From: a virus
Length of the DNA stretch: 36,544 nt
Reading direction: 5' to 3' (one strand)
Virus record (IMG/VR): IMGVR_UViG_3300045921_000116
Location: 1 to 36,544 of that record
Below are positions 21,296 to 36,283 of the stretch, in pieces. Positions within the stretch are counted from its first letter, which is position 1. The number at the start of each line of letters is the position of its first letter. The notes beneath the pieces were generated by a model that worked only from the letters and a program-made list of their open reading frames with translations, was not told where the DNA came from and made no database searches. Position numbers and translations under genes: made by a program.

Positions 21296-21882
21296 AATTT
21301 TAATCTATAACCTCCAAACTTACGTAAATAATCTTCGACAGATGTGCCGTTGGCATCAATTGTTGAATGATTATATGTTTCTGGATAAAAATAAGCAAGT
21401 ACACCGCCGGGACCAACTAAATGAGCAGCCGCTAATATTCCAGATTTAGTTACAAATATTCCGTTGTAATATTTTTGATCCCACTCTTGTATAACCTTTT
21501 TTAAGATTTTACTGTTGCGACGAAGTAGTTCTACTAAAGCAGAATCTTGCATTTGAACATTTGATAGAAATACTTCATCGGGTACATTAAAACCTATTGC
21601 TCTTAATGTTTTTGGATGGAATTGATATTTTCCCAAATGTCCATATCGGTTTACCGTATCGGATACTCCCAGACCTTCTATTGTAAAAAGCTTGTCCATA
21701 AATTTTTTCATATCTCCTTTGTAACGACGAACAATAACAGTATCCGTAACAGAAACGGTATCTCTTATAACTTCTTTAATAATTTTTTCAGATGTAATTT
21801 GTTGTTGAACTATGATTCCAACATTTACACCAATTAAAAAAATTAACAATCGTATGAGTATTTTCTTATCATTTGTTATCAT
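21292..21882 (-). CDS. Membrane-anchored lytic transglycosylase/endolysin
   Basis: A 196-residue protein with an N-terminal membrane anchor (LIRLLIFLIGVNVGIIV, about residues 9-26), then a short linker and a lysozyme-like transglycosylase domain. E69 in FTIEG is the likely catalytic acid, followed by NRYGHLGKYQFHPKTLRAIG, QDSALVELLRRN and SGILAAAHLVGPGGVLAYF, the typical SLT segments, and a terminal NGTSVEDYLRKFGGY. Such enzymes cleave the peptidoglycan glycan backbone. The uncleaved-looking anchor suggests a signal-anchor-release endolysin or an anchored lysin. It overlaps the genes on both sides by 4 nt. Confidence 0.8.
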   Translation of the reverse strand: MITNDKKILIRLLIFLIGVNVGIIVQQQITSEKIIKEVIRDTVSVTDTVIVRRYKGDMKKFMDKLFTIEGLGVSDTVNRYGHLGKYQFHPKTLRAIGFNVPDEVFLSNVQMQDSALVELLRRNSKILKKVIQEWDQKYYNGIFVTKSGILAAAHLVGPGGVLAYFYPETYNHSTIDANGTSVEDYLRKFGGYRLKL

Positions 21883-22910
21883 TTTAATAGGTGAGGTCGA
21901 GCCTCGGTAGCGCCAGCGGGGGTGACTACAACATATTCTGGATTAAATTCACCCAAGTTAGATGCGCCGGCGTATGACAATGCCGAACGAAGGCCATCTA
22001 ACAAACCCTCGATAACGAAAGATATTCCACCTTTAAATGGTATTACGGTAGACTCTCCTTCGACGTTTCGTTCTTCCATACCATGTACGGATTTAGTTTC
22101 AAGAGAAGCAGCACCTCTGTACCTCTTAAATAAACCATTTGGTGTTTCTAGTATCCTACCGGGCGATTCTTTTGTGCCGGCAAGAAGTGATCCTAACATC
22201 ACGGTTGATGCACCAACTGCTAGTGCTTTTGCAATATCACCACTGGTACGTATACCACCATCTGCTATAATTGGTACAGTTGATACTTCACTAACATCTT
22301 CAATAGCTGTAATACTTGGAATTCCAAATCCCGTTTTGATACGAGTTGTGCAGAGAGAGCCGTTCCCTACCCCGGTACGAAGTGCGTCTGCTCCCCAATT
22401 AACTAAATCTATAGCAGCTTGATGAGTTGTTATATTACCCGCAATAACATCAACATAATCAGGAAGTGTTTGTTTTAACTTTTCGAGTGCAATCTTTACA
22501 AATTTGTGATGTCCGTGTGCAACATCAATTAATATAACATTTGCACCATTCTTTGTCAATTCTTGTGATCGTTCTAAATAATCACCGTTTGCACCAATTG
22601 CTGCTGCAATTGGAGTATCAGAATCATAATTTTCCTTTTTAGCTATATCAGCAACAATAGAAACACTTTTTGATTGAGAATCTATAGTCATAAATCGGTG
22701 GATAATTCCAACTCCACCAAGACGCATCATTGCTACTGCCATTTCAACGCCACACACCGTATCCATTGGTGATGCTATCAATGGAATTTTAATTTTGTAG
22801 TTTTTAGTAAATTGTGCAGTTAAATCAATATTTTTACGACTTTCAACCTCACTGTAGGATGGTATTAAGTTGATATCATCATAAGTATATGCTTTTTTGG
22901 GATTACTCAT
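21879..22910 (-). CDS. IMP dehydrogenase/GMP reductase family enzyme without CBS domains
   Basis: A 343-residue TIM-barrel enzyme. MDTVCGVEMAVAMMRLGGVG and the catalytic-loop region VGNGSLCTTR (C187) are standard for the family, and ADGGIRTSGDIAKALAVGAS is the phosphate site. No CBS pair is inserted between the early strands, and the overall length equals GMP reductase. The flap region ends in EGESTVIPFKGGIS, closer to the EGxxxxxPFKG of GMP reductase than to the EGxEGxVPYKG of IMP dehydrogenase. The reaction could be IMP to XMP or GMP to IMP, so the direction in guanine metabolism is undecided. RtcB, which uses GTP, is the gene immediately upstream. Confidence 0.87.
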   Translation of the reverse strand: MSNPKKAYTYDDINLIPSYSEVESRKNIDLTAQFTKNYKIKIPLIASPMDTVCGVEMAVAMMRLGGVGIIHRFMTIDSQSKSVSIVADIAKKENYDSDTPIAAAIGANGDYLERSQELTKNGANVILIDVAHGHHKFVKIALEKLKQTLPDYVDVIAGNITTHQAAIDLVNWGADALRTGVGNGSLCTTRIKTGFGIPSITAIEDVSEVSTVPIIADGGIRTSGDIAKALAVGASTVMLGSLLAGTKESPGRILETPNGLFKRYRGAASLETKSVHGMEERNVEGESTVIPFKGGISFVIEGLLDGLRSALSYAGASNLGEFNPEYVVVTPAGATEARPHLLK

Positions 22911-22943: not shown

Positions 22944-24206
22944 TTAATCTTTGTATGGATCAAAAATATCATCTCCTGCCATTACAACAATTAATGGCTT
23001 GAGAACATTCAATACTGTAATAGTGTCTCCTTGAGCGGAAAGAACATCAGTTAAGCGACGATATACATGTGGAGATTCATCCAACCCACCACCACGAAGA
23101 ATAACGCCCTTTTCTGAAATCCACTCAGACATCATTTCAGGCGTTACTTTACCTGGCTTCAACGGTAAACCAGTTTCTTTATCAATCTTCAACTCACCCG
23201 TCTTACGGTCACGCTTGCCGACTGCCTCAGTACGAGACATAACACGACCTGCTCCGTGAACTGTAGAGTATAATGCGTTTTCCATTATATCCTTAAGTTC
23301 ATCGGACACTATATTTGTATTTCCTTCCAAAATGACAGCATCATCACCCATAGATCCACCAACGAATCCACGTTGACCAGGGAATGCAGGAGTTGCCCCC
23401 TTGCGAACAACAACCAACTCCTGACCAAAATGTTGTTCTTTCCACGCAAAGTTGTGATGGTTGTGAATCAAGTCTAACTCCTTACCACCAAGAATCTTAA
23501 CAACCGTTCGTGCAACCCACTCACGACCAGCGTATGCATATTCACCAGCAATAGTCATCAATTCCCAATAAGCACGTCCCATATCACTATCTAGATGAAG
23601 TAGTGCTTCGGTTTCCGGTGCTTTATTATCCCAATCTAGGTTCTGCGAAAGTGCCATAAATCCTGACGCAATACTATGACCCAGCCCACGGGAACCAAAG
23701 TGAACACCTACCCACAAGTGTTCATCAGTTCGATCAACAAAGACATCAACATAATGATTGCCTGATCCAACCGTTCCCAACTGTGTTCGTGCTTTGTCCT
23801 TTAGTTGGCGTGCATCCTTACGACCAGCTACATCACGTAAAATGTCCCAAGCGTTACTATCAAACAACACGTGATCTGTTGGTGCATCAGTTGCTTTATT
23901 AGTACGGCCAACACCAAACGATATAGTGGACTGAATTTCGTCAGCGAATCGTGATAAGATCGAACGAACTTTTTCGTCACTCTTACTCAAATCAGAAAGC
24001 TTGATATCGGTCTTGATTGCTGCGTTACCGCATGCAATATCAAATCCGACGCCGGCTACTGATACCATATTATCATATGCGGCAACACCCCCAATAGGCA
24101 TGATATAACCCATATGGCCGTCCGCCATAAGTGCAGACTTAATGGCACGACTCTTTACATCTTCAAATTGAGTTAGTGTCTTTTCGTCGTGATTTCCAAA
24201 AATCAT
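22944..24206 (-). CDS. rtcB: RtcB-type RNA ligase
   Basis: A 420-residue protein with the conserved RtcB metal and guanylylation motifs: DGHMGYIMPIGGVAAY, GVGFDIACG (D56, C59), GSGNHYVDVF, HFGSRGLGH, NHHNFAWKEQHFG, and HGAGRVMSR containing the histidine that carries GMP. RtcB joins a 2',3'-cyclic phosphate or 3'-phosphate to a 5'-OH, repairing RNAs cut by toxins or tRNA nucleases. No archease gene is seen in the window. In a phage carrying its own tRNAs and tmRNA, the likely use is repair of tRNA cut by host defence nucleases; that is inference. Confidence 0.93.
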   Translation of the reverse strand: MIFGNHDEKTLTQFEDVKSRAIKSALMADGHMGYIMPIGGVAAYDNMVSVAGVGFDIACGNAAIKTDIKLSDLSKSDEKVRSILSRFADEIQSTISFGVGRTNKATDAPTDHVLFDSNAWDILRDVAGRKDARQLKDKARTQLGTVGSGNHYVDVFVDRTDEHLWVGVHFGSRGLGHSIASGFMALSQNLDWDNKAPETEALLHLDSDMGRAYWELMTIAGEYAYAGREWVARTVVKILGGKELDLIHNHHNFAWKEQHFGQELVVVRKGATPAFPGQRGFVGGSMGDDAVILEGNTNIVSDELKDIMENALYSTVHGAGRVMSRTEAVGKRDRKTGELKIDKETGLPLKPGKVTPEMMSEWISEKGVILRGGGLDESPHVYRRLTDVLSAQGDTITVLNVLKPLIVVMAGDDIFDPYKD

Positions 24207-29579: not shown

Positions 29580-29599
29580 ATATTAAGATTGGTTGTGAG

Positions 29600-29941
29600 T
29601 GGACCTGGCGGGAGTCGAACCCGCGTCCGAGCATGCTTCTTATTAAACATTTATGCACATAGTTCTTTGTATAATTTAATCTGTTTCTAACCAAAGAACA
29701 AATATAAAACAGACATAGGAAAGTTGTGTATCGTTTTAGTTACTTCCCATCACTAAAACTATACCGTGAAACTGAATGAATTACTCTTACACGGTTGGGA
29801 GTAATTCATCAAGCCGCGAGCCTAAGCTCAAGCAGCGAGGGCGTATTCGTTATTGCCAGTTATAGTTTTTGGTATTTTTACTGATGTACCAATCAGATGC
29901 AAAGTTTAATCCTCCACAGCCCGTCGAATCCATACAGGCCC
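29600..29941 (-). ncRNA. ssrA: tmRNA (one-piece)
   Basis: The RNA is 342 nt. GGGCCTG at its 5' end pairs with CAGGTCC at its 3' end to form the tRNA-like acceptor, and GTATGGATTCGACGGG follows as in standard tmRNA. The T-arm reads GCGGG TTCGACT CCCGC. The tag frame (29828-29857) is GGC AAT AAC GAA TAC GCC CTC GCT GCT TGA, giving GNNEYALAA. The 3' CCA is not encoded. The RNA rescues stalled ribosomes together with SmpB, for which I see no gene in the window, so host SmpB is probably used. The tag ends in the usual ALAA signal for ClpXP and related proteases. A promoter inside an 11-bp inverted repeat lies just upstream. Confidence 0.93.
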
Positions 29942-30031: not shown

Positions 30032-31102
30032 TTAAAATATTTTCTGTATTAAATAATATACCCCAAAAATAAATGCAACTATTACACCAAATACCCAAGG
30101 TAGTTTATTTTTTGGTGTTTCTGTAACTGGGCCGTGGGGTTCCTCTACAACTTTGTCTTCTTCAGCAGTTAGTAACTTGACTCCTAAATATTGTTCTACT
30201 TTATTAGCGTGATTAGCAATTGTATATCGTCCACTTTCACTGCCTGCAAATAGTAATCCAACCCACGCATCACCATCTATATCTCGTCTAAATATTGGCG
30301 ATCCAGAATCTCCCCCTTGAGAAAATACTGAATTTGATTCGATCAATATCTGATTATCAAACCAAATGTCTCCTCCATCAAACCAAATAGAAAGAGTCAT
30401 TGAATCATCTACAACTTTACCATTTGTAGTTAATGACGTGGTTCTTCCCATTTTAGTAACGGTGTCACCTATCAACACGTGTCTAGTAAATTTTGGTTTT
30501 ATATCTGTTTTATAGACAGTATTTTTTTCTTCTGGTAGAGTTGTTCTCATAGCACAATCTACTTCATTTATTCCATTTAAATTCATATTAATGGGAATAA
30601 ATTTAGAAAGAACGCCTACTTTATCCTGTAATCTGCCGCCGTCATATGGTGCTGGTTGTAAAATTGGATCACCGATTTTTGCCGCGTTTTCCATTGCATA
30701 AATGTGGTTATTACTCACACGGAATACGGAGCCTGATGTATCAGTCACCAAAACTCCACCGGTTCCAGCTGTTACATCTACATGCCCTTCAGAAACACCA
30801 ACTTCAACAGGTCGTATTCTTGTTTTAGCACTTAATTTTTTAATAAATCCAATTTCTTTAATATCAAAATCTAGTGAATCCAAATCACGCATTACAAAAC
30901 TATCTTTATCAATACGTTGCTTTTCTGTTAATGCGCTAGGTGATATTTTTTTCTGTACATATACGGTTAATGCCAAGTTTCCCAATTTTTTACCATTAGT
31001 TTCTTTTTCTGATACTCCGACGCCAACTACATTTGGGAAATTTTTAATAATGTAATCTAGTTTGTCTTTTTTTAGTTTTAAAAGTTCTTGTTTATTTTTC
31101 AT
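30032..31102 (-). CDS. Membrane-anchored trypsin-like serine protease
   Basis: A 356-residue protein. The catalytic triad appears as H133 (VSNNHIYA), D182 (EVDCAM) and S266 (QGGDSGSPIF), in chymotrypsin-fold order; MGRTTSLTTNGKV and ILIESNSVF are also typical. A C-terminal membrane helix (LPWVFGVIVAFIFGVYYLIQ, about 335-354) anchors it. The first about 100 residues contain FPNVVGVGVSEKETNGK, which resembles an N-terminal domain of bacterial secreted trypsin-like proteins. No signal peptide is visible, so the protease domain may be cytoplasmic or secreted by an unknown route. Possible targets are prohead proteins, a host factor or a defence protein. Confidence 0.78.
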   Translation of the reverse strand: MKNKQELLKLKKDKLDYIIKNFPNVVGVGVSEKETNGKKLGNLALTVYVQKKISPSALTEKQRIDKDSFVMRDLDSLDFDIKEIGFIKKLSAKTRIRPVEVGVSEGHVDVTAGTGGVLVTDTSGSVFRVSNNHIYAMENAAKIGDPILQPAPYDGGRLQDKVGVLSKFIPINMNLNGINEVDCAMRTTLPEEKNTVYKTDIKPKFTRHVLIGDTVTKMGRTTSLTTNGKVVDDSMTLSIWFDGGDIWFDNQILIESNSVFSQGGDSGSPIFRRDIDGDAWVGLLFAGSESGRYTIANHANKVEQYLGVKLLTAEEDKVVEEPHGPVTETPKNKLPWVFGVIVAFIFGVYYLIQKIF

Positions 31103-32022: not shown

Positions 32023-32095
32023 TCTGCCTATCGGGATTCGAACCCGAATCTATATTTTAGGAGAATATTGTTTTATCCAGTTAAACTATAAGCAG
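32023..32095 (-). tRNA. tRNA-Arg(CCT)
   Basis: Acceptor CTGCTTA pairs with TAGGCAG. D-stem GTTT/AAAC, anticodon arm ATATT CTCCTAA AATAT with anticodon CCT (reads AGG), T-arm TCGGG TTCGAAT CCCGA. The 3' CCA is not encoded. Its first 23 nt overlap the end of the phosphoesterase gene, whose stop TAA lies in the D-arm. Confidence 0.88.
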
Positions 32096-32744
32096 ATTTA
32101 TCTGGAATGGTATATAATTCTCCTATATCCAAAATTCTGACTTGGTTATCTACTACTGATCGATGCATATGACCACAGAATAGTTGAGGACAACCTAAGT
32201 CTCTCCATAAGTATTCTATTATATGAGAAGAACTATCATAATCTTCGTCTGAAAGGTTCCATTCTTTTTTATTCAATGGACCAAAATGCTTCATAATAAT
32301 AGAAACCGGAGGCGTGTGTGTTACTAGAATATCCAGCTTTTGACCGTAGAGTGGTTCTACATCTTTACTGGTTATAGTTTCTTGTATAAACCAATCGATT
32401 CCTTCAGTTCTCCAATTCTTATCAGGAGAAAATCCTCCCCCACAAAATCCAATACGATATCCATCAATTTGGAGTATACTTCCACGGGGAACGTAAAATA
32501 TATTTGGTTTTACTTCTGTAACAGTTTTAAACTGACTCAAATAATTAAAGTTTTCGTGATTTCCGTCTATAGCATAAAGTTTATGCTTTACTGGAAATGA
32601 GTCTAACTTTTTCATTATTTTTGGATAAAACCCAAAGTCGCCTACCTGAATTATAGTAACATTTTCAGCATCTTCTGGTATGCGACTCAAACGTTGATGC
32701 ATTACATCAAATTCACCGTGAATGTCACCTAAAAATATAATCAT
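32073..32744 (-). CDS. Metallophosphoesterase (calcineurin-like)
   Basis: A 223-residue protein with the family metal motifs: LGDIHGEFD, VGDFGFYP, IDGNHENFN, VTHTPPVS and CGHMHR. Such enzymes remove phosphate from nucleotides, phosphoproteins or RNA ends; the substrate is unknown. The last codons and the stop run into the 5' part of tRNA-Arg, so message and tRNA share bases. It is a single-domain protein without the Rad50 partner found at 768-3914. Confidence 0.86.
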   Translation of the reverse strand: MIIFLGDIHGEFDVMHQRLSRIPEDAENVTIIQVGDFGFYPKIMKKLDSFPVKHKLYAIDGNHENFNYLSQFKTVTEVKPNIFYVPRGSILQIDGYRIGFCGGGFSPDKNWRTEGIDWFIQETITSKDVEPLYGQKLDILVTHTPPVSIIMKHFGPLNKKEWNLSDEDYDSSSHIIEYLWRDLGCPQLFCGHMHRSVVDNQVRILDIGELYTIPDKSAYSLTG

Positions 32745-32857: not shown

Positions 32858-33109
32858 TTAGATTGACCACTCTGTAATATACCGACCGCGAGCTTCAGGA
32901 CGTGAACTTGGGACATTACCAACTGGTACAAATCTGGGTTCTCTTAGAGCACTGTTAATATAAGACAAACGAGCGTTAACGTTCTTTTTTCCTACGCCGT
33001 TACGATTCAAAAATGTGTGAACATCATCAGCAGTAATTGTGTTGCTGACTCGCTTACGAGCGATATCCTTTAAATATCGTACTAACTGATTTTTCAACTC
33101 TACTTTCAT
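32858..33109 (-). CDS. Hypothetical basic protein, 83 residues
   Basis: The open frame extends upstream over tRNA-Gly, but the ATG at 33109 is the likely start. A GGAGG lies 10 nt upstream and AAAGGTT directly precedes the ATG. The protein is basic and mostly helical (LKNQLVRYLKDIARKRVSNT, ADDVHTFLNRNGVGKKNVNA), with an extended C-terminus. No family recognised. It might be a small DNA-binding protein. Confidence 0.6.
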   Translation of the reverse strand: MKVELKNQLVRYLKDIARKRVSNTITADDVHTFLNRNGVGKKNVNARLSYINSALREPRFVPVGNVPSSRPEARGRYITEWSI

Positions 33110-33150
33110 AACCTTTTTCCTCCATTTAAATAATCCCCCTTTCTGGGGAG

Positions 33151-33221
33151 AGCGAACCGAAGGATTCGAACCTCCACCTCCAACCAGGACGGTTGGCATG
33201 CTACCGTTACACCAAATCCGC
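33151..33221 (-). tRNA. tRNA-Gly(TCC)
   Basis: Acceptor GCGGATT pairs with GGTTCGC (two G-U and one T-G pairs). Anticodon arm CCAAC CGTCCTG GTTGG with anticodon TCC, reading GGA and GGG. T-arm GGAGG TTCGAAT CCTTC. The 3' CCA is not encoded. Confidence 0.88.
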
Positions 33222-33224
33222 AAA

Positions 33225-33355: not shown

Positions 33356-33568
33356 TCATAAATCGATACTCGTGGACTGATCCACTTGTTCGTCATTTGA
33401 CTTGATCACTGATAAAAGTACTCCTGCTGGAAGCAGGATATACAAGATCAGCACTGCATATCCACTAACAACTGCAAAATCATCTGGAGTATTTACTAAC
33501 GTAATTCCTACTTTTGTTACAAAATATCCTATCATCAAGTAAATTAGAAACCCGAATACAAACTTCAT
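33356..33568 (-). CDS. Small two-pass membrane protein
   Basis: A 70-residue protein with two hydrophobic helices (VFGFLIYLMIGYFVTKVGI, about 4-22; VSGYAVLILYILLPAGVLLS, about 34-53) and a short charged tail. It could be a holin-type or membrane regulator protein, with no proof. Its ATG overlaps the TGA of the 49-residue gene (ATGA). Confidence 0.62.
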   Translation of the reverse strand: MKFVFGFLIYLMIGYFVTKVGITLVNTPDDFAVVSGYAVLILYILLPAGVLLSVIKSNDEQVDQSTSIDL

Positions 33569-33714
33569 TCTCTTTCTACCTGCCGTTTACGCATCTGATT
33601 AAGTGCTTCAATATAAGGATTGTTTTTATCGTTATTTGACGATAATGATCTAGCAACTTCTAACATCTGATCATAAACATCTTTGTTACGAACATCAATT
33701 TCTTGACTGTGCAT
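33565..33714 (-). CDS. Small helical protein, 49 residues
   Basis: From the ATG at 33714 with GAGGAAGAAT before it, the frame encodes a hydrophilic helix (MHSQEIDVRNKDVYDQMLE at the start, NPYIEALNQMRKRQVERE at the end). It begins inside the last codons of the hydroxylase gene and its stop overlaps the next start, a tightly packed arrangement that supports it as real. Function unknown. Confidence 0.6.
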   Translation of the reverse strand: MHSQEIDVRNKDVYDQMLEVARSLSSNNDKNNPYIEALNQMRKRQVERE

Positions 33715-34405
33715 ATTCTTCCTCTAAAAACTTTTCAAATTGTAAAGTTTCTAACAACAAATGTTCAAAACTTTCTACAACAAACAGTATTGGTTGAATA
33801 TTATCTATTCTGTACTCTTGTAGTATAACATCCTTGAAGTTAAAAGTCAAGCGGGTACAGTTATCACTTAACGCATTTTCTGCGTCGCCATGCGAAGATA
33901 TTAAACCACTGCCATATATTTTAATATTGTTATTCTCTTTGATCAACCCAAACTCAATAGAAAACCAAAAGTACGATGTAATATATTTTAACAATTTTGG
34001 ATTACTTGAATATTTTACTCCAAGTTCTCCAATTTTTTGCAGGAAATCTGCAAAATCTTTATCAGCGTGTAATGGGGTGTGACCAAATACATCGTGAAAA
34101 ATATCAGGCGCTTCTGTATAATCTATTTCTGATGCTGGACGTACCGATGTGACTGCTGGAAATAGTCGTTGTGAAAGTAGTGAAAAAAATTCATCCGCAG
34201 GTAGAAACCCTGATACAGGATATATTTTCCATCCCGTAATAGGATACAATGTTTCATTTACATTGTCAACCGTAGGAAGATCTTCGTAAATTTTTAATAC
34301 ATTCAAACCATTTAGATATTGTTTACACGCAGTTTCTTGTAAAGAAGAAATCCTCTTGTTATAGAGGATTTTCCACACGTCGTTATCAGTTAACTGATTG
34401 TTCAT
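33695..34405 (-). CDS. Aromatic amino acid hydroxylase (phenylalanine 4-monooxygenase-like)
   Basis: A 236-residue protein matching the catalytic core of pterin-dependent aromatic amino acid hydroxylases. EAPDIFHDVFGHTPLHADKD gives H104 and H109, and SYFWFSIEFGLI gives E151, the three iron ligands, with spacing close to phenylalanine hydroxylase (5 and 42 residues). YGSGLISSHGDAENALS and the terminal ILFVVESFEHLLLETLQF also fit. The reaction would be Phe to Tyr with tetrahydropterin and O2. No regulatory ACT domain or pterin-recycling gene (pcd) is visible. It is unusual in a phage; a role in aromatic amino acid supply, host metabolism or pigment formation is speculative. Confidence 0.85.
   Translation of the reverse strand: MNNQLTDNDVWKILYNKRISSLQETACKQYLNGLNVLKIYEDLPTVDNVNETLYPITGWKIYPVSGFLPADEFFSLLSQRLFPAVTSVRPASEIDYTEAPDIFHDVFGHTPLHADKDFADFLQKIGELGVKYSSNPKLLKYITSYFWFSIEFGLIKENNNIKIYGSGLISSHGDAENALSDNCTRLTFNFKDVILQEYRIDNIQPILFVVESFEHLLLETLQFEKFLEEEYAQSRN
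33822..33850 (-). promoter_or_regulatory. Internal sigma70-like promoter within the hydroxylase gene
   Basis: TTGACT (33845-33850), 17-nt spacer, TATACT (33822-33827) on the minus strand, 110 nt before the 49-residue gene. It could give extra transcription of the small gene and membrane gene. Both boxes lie within coding sequence, so chance matches cannot be excluded. Confidence 0.4.
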
Positions 34406-34408
34406 TGT

Positions 34409-34732
34409 TTATCCCACCCCAAAATTAACTAATCTATAGTACTCACCGGGTGTTGTTTCTAAGAGTTTGAATTTTTTATCGGTATCAGACCATTCATACC
34501 AAACCTGAAAATATTCGTCAGACCTAATCAAATTATACGTACTATTAACATTTACAGGTTCAATAACGGCATATTGTGCAGAGTTTCCTTCGTCTATATT
34601 AAGAATATTATGTTCTACAATATATTTTGCCTTTTCTATTGTTTCATAAATACCAACTATACGCACGTCTTGTTTATGTTTATTGCTTTTATCATAAAAC
34701 TTATAGAGTATAGTAAGAGAATAAACTTTCAT
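34409..34732 (-). CDS. Hypothetical protein, 107 residues
   Basis: Begins with strand-like KVYSLTILYKFYDKSNKHKQ and VRIVGIYETIEKAKYIVEHN, followed by FQVWYEWSDTDKKFKLLETT. It looks like a small alpha-beta protein, similar in style to common phage orphans. The ATG follows AGGAGAACTGC and overlaps the HNH gene stop. Not recognised. Confidence 0.62.
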   Translation of the reverse strand: MKVYSLTILYKFYDKSNKHKQDVRIVGIYETIEKAKYIVEHNILNIDEGNSAQYAVIEPVNVNSTYNLIRSDEYFQVWYEWSDTDKKFKLLETTPGEYYRLVNFGVG

Positions 34733-35950: not shown

Positions 35951-36283
35951 TTATAGGTTTTGGGCCAACTTCTTCATTATATTAGTGAACTGTCGTTCTG
36001 TCAAGGTGTTCATCAGTTTTGCTTCTACCTGAAGCACTTTTTCCTCGCTCCAATCTGGGTGCTCCCAATGGAGAAATTCATGTACAAATGTTGATAATAA
36101 TGGTTGTCGATGATCTAATATTATATGAGCTTTTGATCCACGATCAATAGAATTATCCTCTAACAAATAAAAACGAATTTCTCCACGCAGTTTTTTCATT
36201 TTTTTCAATTGAATTTTATGACCTTCATTTAAGAATTTATGAATTTTTCTTTTATAGGTTATAGAACAATATTCTTTTTCCAT
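35951..36283 (-). CDS. Small HExxH protein, possible metallopeptidase
   Basis: A 110-residue protein with STFVHEFLHWEHPDW, which includes an HExxH zinc motif, followed by an acidic helix containing VEAKLM that could supply a further ligand. The basic N-terminus (TYKRKIHKFLNEGHKI) and short length resemble minimal SprT- or Wss1-like metallopeptidases. Such enzymes might process DNA-protein crosslinks, but the family is not certain. Confidence 0.6.
   Translation of the reverse strand: MEKEYCSITYKRKIHKFLNEGHKIQLKKMKKLRGEIRFYLLEDNSIDRGSKAHIILDHRQPLLSTFVHEFLHWEHPDWSEEKVLQVEAKLMNTLTERQFTNIMKKLAQNL

Follow-up and report, generated by a model that had tools for sequence, protein, structure and literature searches.

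Can a phage carry a working pterin-dependent aromatic amino acid hydroxylase (AAAH), and what would it gain from one? The question is raised by a gene in IMG/VR virus record IMGVR_UViG_3300045921_000116, analysed here over its whole length of 36,544 nucleotides (the window). A preliminary description of the sequence had read the gene as a phage-borne AAAH with an iron-binding triad and a need for host pterin recycling. It proposed a protein database search, a phylogeny and a search of related phages as checks, and named a contig chimeric with bacterial DNA as a finding that would overturn it. AAAHs use Fe(II), O2 and a tetrahydropterin, with which phenylalanine hydroxylase converts phenylalanine to tyrosine.

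Identity of the encoded protein

The reading frame ran uninterrupted from ATG to stop and was assigned by profile, PDB, structure and alignment.

33695..34405, minus strand, phenylalanine 4-hydroxylase-like biopterin-dependent AAAH, 236 aa

PF00351 (Biopterin_H) was the sole Pfam family in the protein (residues 6-231, E 9.7e-49) and passed its curated cut-off of 22.7 with 166.6 bits. All 45 matches in the PDB sequence set were AAAHs; bacterial phenylalanine hydroxylases (PheOH) ranked first, with the Colwellia enzyme 2v28 at the top (E 2.6e-46). Among NCBIfam models, NF008877 (phenylalanine 4-monooxygenase) was passed (259.2 bits, cut-off 247), and TIGR01267 (bacterial phenylalanine 4-monooxygenase), which draws the enzyme more narrowly, was missed (198.5 bits, cut-off 264.75). 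The nearest bacterial relative, from Gemmatimonadota, likewise fell below the TIGR01267 cut-off (240.8). Scores for the tyrosine and tryptophan hydroxylase models were far under their cut-offs. The proposed search thus returned AAAH or phenylalanine hydroxylase from Pfam, PDB and NCBIfam alike, and the identity first suggested was borne out by PF00351, NF008877 and the structural results below. Matches of this strength lie well outside chance, and the product is a genuine biopterin-dependent AAAH. Lineage and the score for the curated family narrow its substrate to phenylalanine as the likely one.

Active site and predicted structure

The iron ligands H104, H109 and E151 lie within PDIFHDVFGH and FWFSIEFGL and were invariant in alignments with bacterial relatives, so that the triad and flanking motifs stood as first described. 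All 15 columns strictly invariant among 44 bacterial relatives were kept by the phage protein, W11, R89, P100, D101, W147, G153, G165, S171 and Q204 among them; Y96, F152 and S170 were kept as well. Without purifying selection it would be difficult to account for every such column being retained at 28-46% identity. An AlphaFold model was built from an alignment of relatives, with three plasmid-derived rows left out, and had a mean pLDDT of 96.6 and a pTM of 0.92. It matched Chromobacterium violaceum PheOH (4esm) with Z 32.0 over 230 aligned residues.

Three positions departed from nearly all relatives: A99 (Glu in 42 of the 44, Ala also in one, L047), S144 (Arg in 44/44) and S149 (Thr in 44/44). 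In human PAH the counterpart of this usually invariant Glu is E280, which supports the substrate-binding Arg270 and is altered in some PKU alleles; by that analogy A99 may alter the activity or affinity of the enzyme.

These substitutions at otherwise nearly invariant columns, together with a long branch of 1.2-1.4 changes per site, could mean that the substrate or reaction has changed (hydroxylation of Tyr or Trp, DOPA formation, a redox or pigment function), or that pterin oxidation alters host redox. We regard this as unlikely. NF008877 was scored above its cut-off and the tyrosine and tryptophan hydroxylase models far below theirs; the active-site Trp147 is kept, and at the position that aligns with Asp425 of TyrH the protein has Ile200, as bacterial PheOH does. 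Phenylalanine hydroxylation is retained as the preferred reading.

Genomic context

Genes of the window include those for a T4-type baseplate wedge protein, gp25, an SbcC-like nuclease, RtcB ligase, UvdE and an IMP dehydrogenase-like protein, along with tRNAs and a tmRNA. The window was compared with a 105-kb relative (G001), which is collinear with window positions 768 to 36283, including the genes that flank the hydroxylase on both sides. The neighbouring features are as follows.

32073..32744, minus strand, metallophosphoesterase shared with related phages (G001: 40% identity), collinear flank
32858..33223, minus strand, phage-conserved ORF (G001: 48% identity in the part that matches), collinear flank 3' of the hydroxylase
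33150..33221, minus strand, tRNA-Gly(tcc), adjoining the cassette and marking the phage tRNA/accessory region
33356..33568, minus strand, small, apparently hydrophobic protein of 70 aa, downstream of the hydroxylase in the same gene run
33565..33714, minus strand, small downstream ORF of 49 aa, overlapping the 3' end of the hydroxylase by 20 bp and the start of the next gene by 4 bp
34409..34732, minus strand, upstream ORF of 107 aa with no assigned function, ending 3 bp ahead of the hydroxylase start codon
35375..35764, minus strand, phage-conserved ORF (G001: 32% identity), collinear flank 5' of the hydroxylase
35951..36283, minus strand, phage-conserved ORF of 110 aa containing an HE..H motif (G001: 42% identity), collinear flank 5' of the hydroxylase

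The true start of the ORF at 32858..33223 is probably further in than listed, because the listed start runs into the tRNA. Viral contigs were scanned for relatives of the 107-aa upstream ORF and none were found; the same kind of scan with the conserved 110-aa flank ORF returned G001 as its sole match. The G001 interval that corresponds to the hydroxylase region holds dozens of tRNA genes, which by comparison places the hydroxylase in an accessory, tRNA-rich region of this phage group's genome. Its GC content was 33.1%, against 34.0% for the window, and its codon usage was inside the phage range, near the lower end, with the RtcB gene as an outlier. Motifs resembling Shine-Dalgarno sequences were found upstream of 19 of the 43 window genes, against a background of 9%.

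A chimeric contig, in which phage and bacterial DNA were joined and the gene was never viral, was weighed against this context. That such false positives occur in IMG/VR is shown by L184, the single relative returned by three AAAH pattern scans of IMG/VR, which as collection scans may leave out records very near the window. At 894-1541 L184 has a chromosomal-looking bacterial phhA beside a terminase/portal cluster. The locus is probably host DNA that borders a prophage or gene transfer agent, an example of how host genes can be misread as phage metabolic genes. Hitch-hiking host DNA is the right description of L184 and does not fit the window, given its phage context. Here phage-conserved collinear genes lie on both sides, ORF spacing and overlaps continue through the gene, GC and codon usage are phage-like with no break in composition, and the closest cellular homologues among the matches listed, from Gemmatimonadota, were only about 46-50% identical. 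On this evidence a chimeric origin is very unlikely, and the gene belongs to a large tailed phage. Phage carriage is thus upheld, and the refutation named for it finds no support.

Other features of the same genomes were recorded. The tmRNA of the window (29597-29941, minus strand; Rfam RF00023, 130 bits) has a predicted tag GNNEYALAA; G001 has a tmRNA at the collinear place with the tag ANPALALAA. In G001, positions 40001-60000 (L170) contain 44 predicted tRNA genes and the tmRNA in about 17 kb. One of these tRNAs, with a CUA anticodon, was called Pyl. The same interval in the window holds three tRNAs and the hydroxylase. An IMP dehydrogenase/GMP reductase-like protein (21879-22910, minus strand, 343 aa, below the typical length of a CBS-containing IMPDH) matches G001 at 75% identity over part of its length; Mel-JY01 and an uncultured 484-kb phage also have relatives of it. 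A predicted protease with an apparent C-terminal transmembrane segment adjoins the tmRNA (30032-31102, minus strand; phrog_20754, E 5e-46); comparison with related loci gave no match for it.

Occurrence among viruses

The viral collections were searched for further AAAHs. There was no match in PHROGs, in 50,697 GenBank phage records (tblastn) or, at E <= 0.001, in the BFVD predicted viral structures. The proposed search of related phages was run with PF00351, which was carried by none of 49 virus records related by baseplate and none of 50 related through the nearby metallophosphoesterase, many of these records being fragments (0/99 together). No phage-borne AAAH was found in the open-access literature searched. 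The enzyme family is well known, and its carriage by a phage is new as far as these collections and open-access papers reach. One viral copy of the gene, that of this contig, has been found.

Origin of the gene

Phylogeny against bacterial relatives, the remaining check, put the phage protein on a long branch (1.41 changes per site in an 84-row tree, 1.18 in a 64-row tree). The branch arose at the base of a clade of Gemmatimonadota, Acidobacteriota and Planctomycetota with one Armatimonadota sequence (support 98/98 and 99/98). Grouping of the phage protein with Gemmatimonadota was not rejected (AU p 0.213). The flanks of bacterial AAAH relatives had no shared pathway neighbours.

From the long branch and the phage-like codon use, acquisition by the phage lineage was probably not recent. 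A recent transfer from the host was considered and is unsupported, as both observations point the other way. The RtcB gene (22944-24206, minus strand) had a local GC of about 44% and outlying codon usage, and was absent from G001. Its best identity was 66-68% in the Gemmatimonadota set and 67% in one genome of the Acidobacteriota set, against 55-57% in the Bacteroidota and Planctomycetota sets. Judging by its higher GC, outlying codons, likeness to Gemmatimonadota and absence from G001, it was probably imported later, and it hints at the host. Gemmatimonadota are a plausible host on this suggestive evidence.

The hydroxylase could also be an inactive or non-selected passenger from the host, of no benefit to the phage. 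Its presence in a single viral contig and in none of the 99 related virus records would fit, as would the unusual A99 and S144. The reading frame is intact, however, and the invariant catalytic columns are all kept despite long divergence; GC and codon use are phage-like, and of the two genes it is RtcB that looks the more recent import. We consider a passenger slightly less probable than a changed substrate, and favour a gene kept for its function.

Pterin recycling

PF01329, the pterin-recycling dehydratase, was absent from the window, which is a fragment of the phage genome. Nor was it found in 18 records of related viruses, 16 of them from IMG/VR and the other two Microcystis phage Mel-JY01 and a Flavobacterium immuto phage. 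Each of the seven bacterial genomes with an AAAH that were tested had it. On these counts the hydroxylase likely depends on the host for pterin recycling, in agreement with what had been expected of it.

Proposed role

We think it probable that the phage keeps a catalytically competent PheOH of bacterial origin as an auxiliary metabolic gene, by which Phe would be shifted to Tyr with host pterin. The phage lineage would have taken the gene from a bacterium related to the Gemmatimonadota, Acidobacteriota and Planctomycetota sequences, at a time early enough for phage composition to have been gained since, and would have kept it in the tRNA-rich accessory region. During infection the enzyme would convert host Phe to Tyr with Fe(II) and O2 while host tetrahydropterin was oxidised. 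The host carbinolamine dehydratase, together with a dihydropteridine reductase, would then recycle the 4a-hydroxypterin. The phage would in this way probably redirect host aromatic amino acids during infection via the host pterin cofactor; we infer the activity, the source of cofactor, the timing and the benefit to the phage.

The most likely benefit would be a shift towards Tyr of the aromatic amino acids that turnover of host proteins sets free, the extra Tyr serving phage protein synthesis or energy-yielding catabolism. Phage proteins were not richer in Tyr than in Phe (Y/F 0.96; 0.89 in the structural block), so a benefit through Tyr supply gains no special support, and redox, pterin or catabolic roles are also possible. 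We lean slightly towards a broader claim, that this is the first virus-encoded AAAH and would let a phage control the Phe/Tyr balance and tetrahydropterin pool of its host, possibly with altered specificity (A99, S149). If true, it would add a metabolic target so far unseen among phages.

Comparison with known systems

The monomeric PhhA enzymes of bacteria (C. violaceum 1LTU/4ESM, Colwellia psychrerythraea 2V28, Legionella 4BPT) have the same fold as the phage protein (Z about 31-32) and share its 2-His-1-Glu iron site, HDxFGH motif and pterin and substrate pocket residues. The phage protein is 32-35% identical to them in structural alignments, has A99 in place of Glu, and has a shorter N-terminus, beginning just ahead of the catalytic core. 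A deeply divergent core of 236 aa would help to learn which parts phenylalanine hydroxylase can do without.

In Salinivibrio a 4a-hydroxytetrahydrobiopterin dehydratase gene overlaps phhA, whereas the phage gene has no adjacent pterin dehydratase. The Gemmatimonadota AAAHs (L008, L193) are the closest sequences among the matches listed, but are chromosomal, and the Gemmatimonadota genomes tested (G048, G049) carry the pterin-4a-carbinolamine dehydratase that the window does not.

Phage auxiliary metabolic genes reveal host reactions that limit viral production. Unlike those known, an AAAH was absent from PHROGs, the phage records, BFVD and the open-access papers searched, and tetrahydropterin-dependent aromatic hydroxylation is accordingly missing from such reactions there. 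The gene is like them in specifying a host-type metabolic enzyme in the accessory region of a tailed phage genome, and it is encoded between viral genes, as the collinear G001 flanks and overlapping ORFs indicate. It would show that the metabolism of aromatic amino acids and pterins is within reach of a phage.
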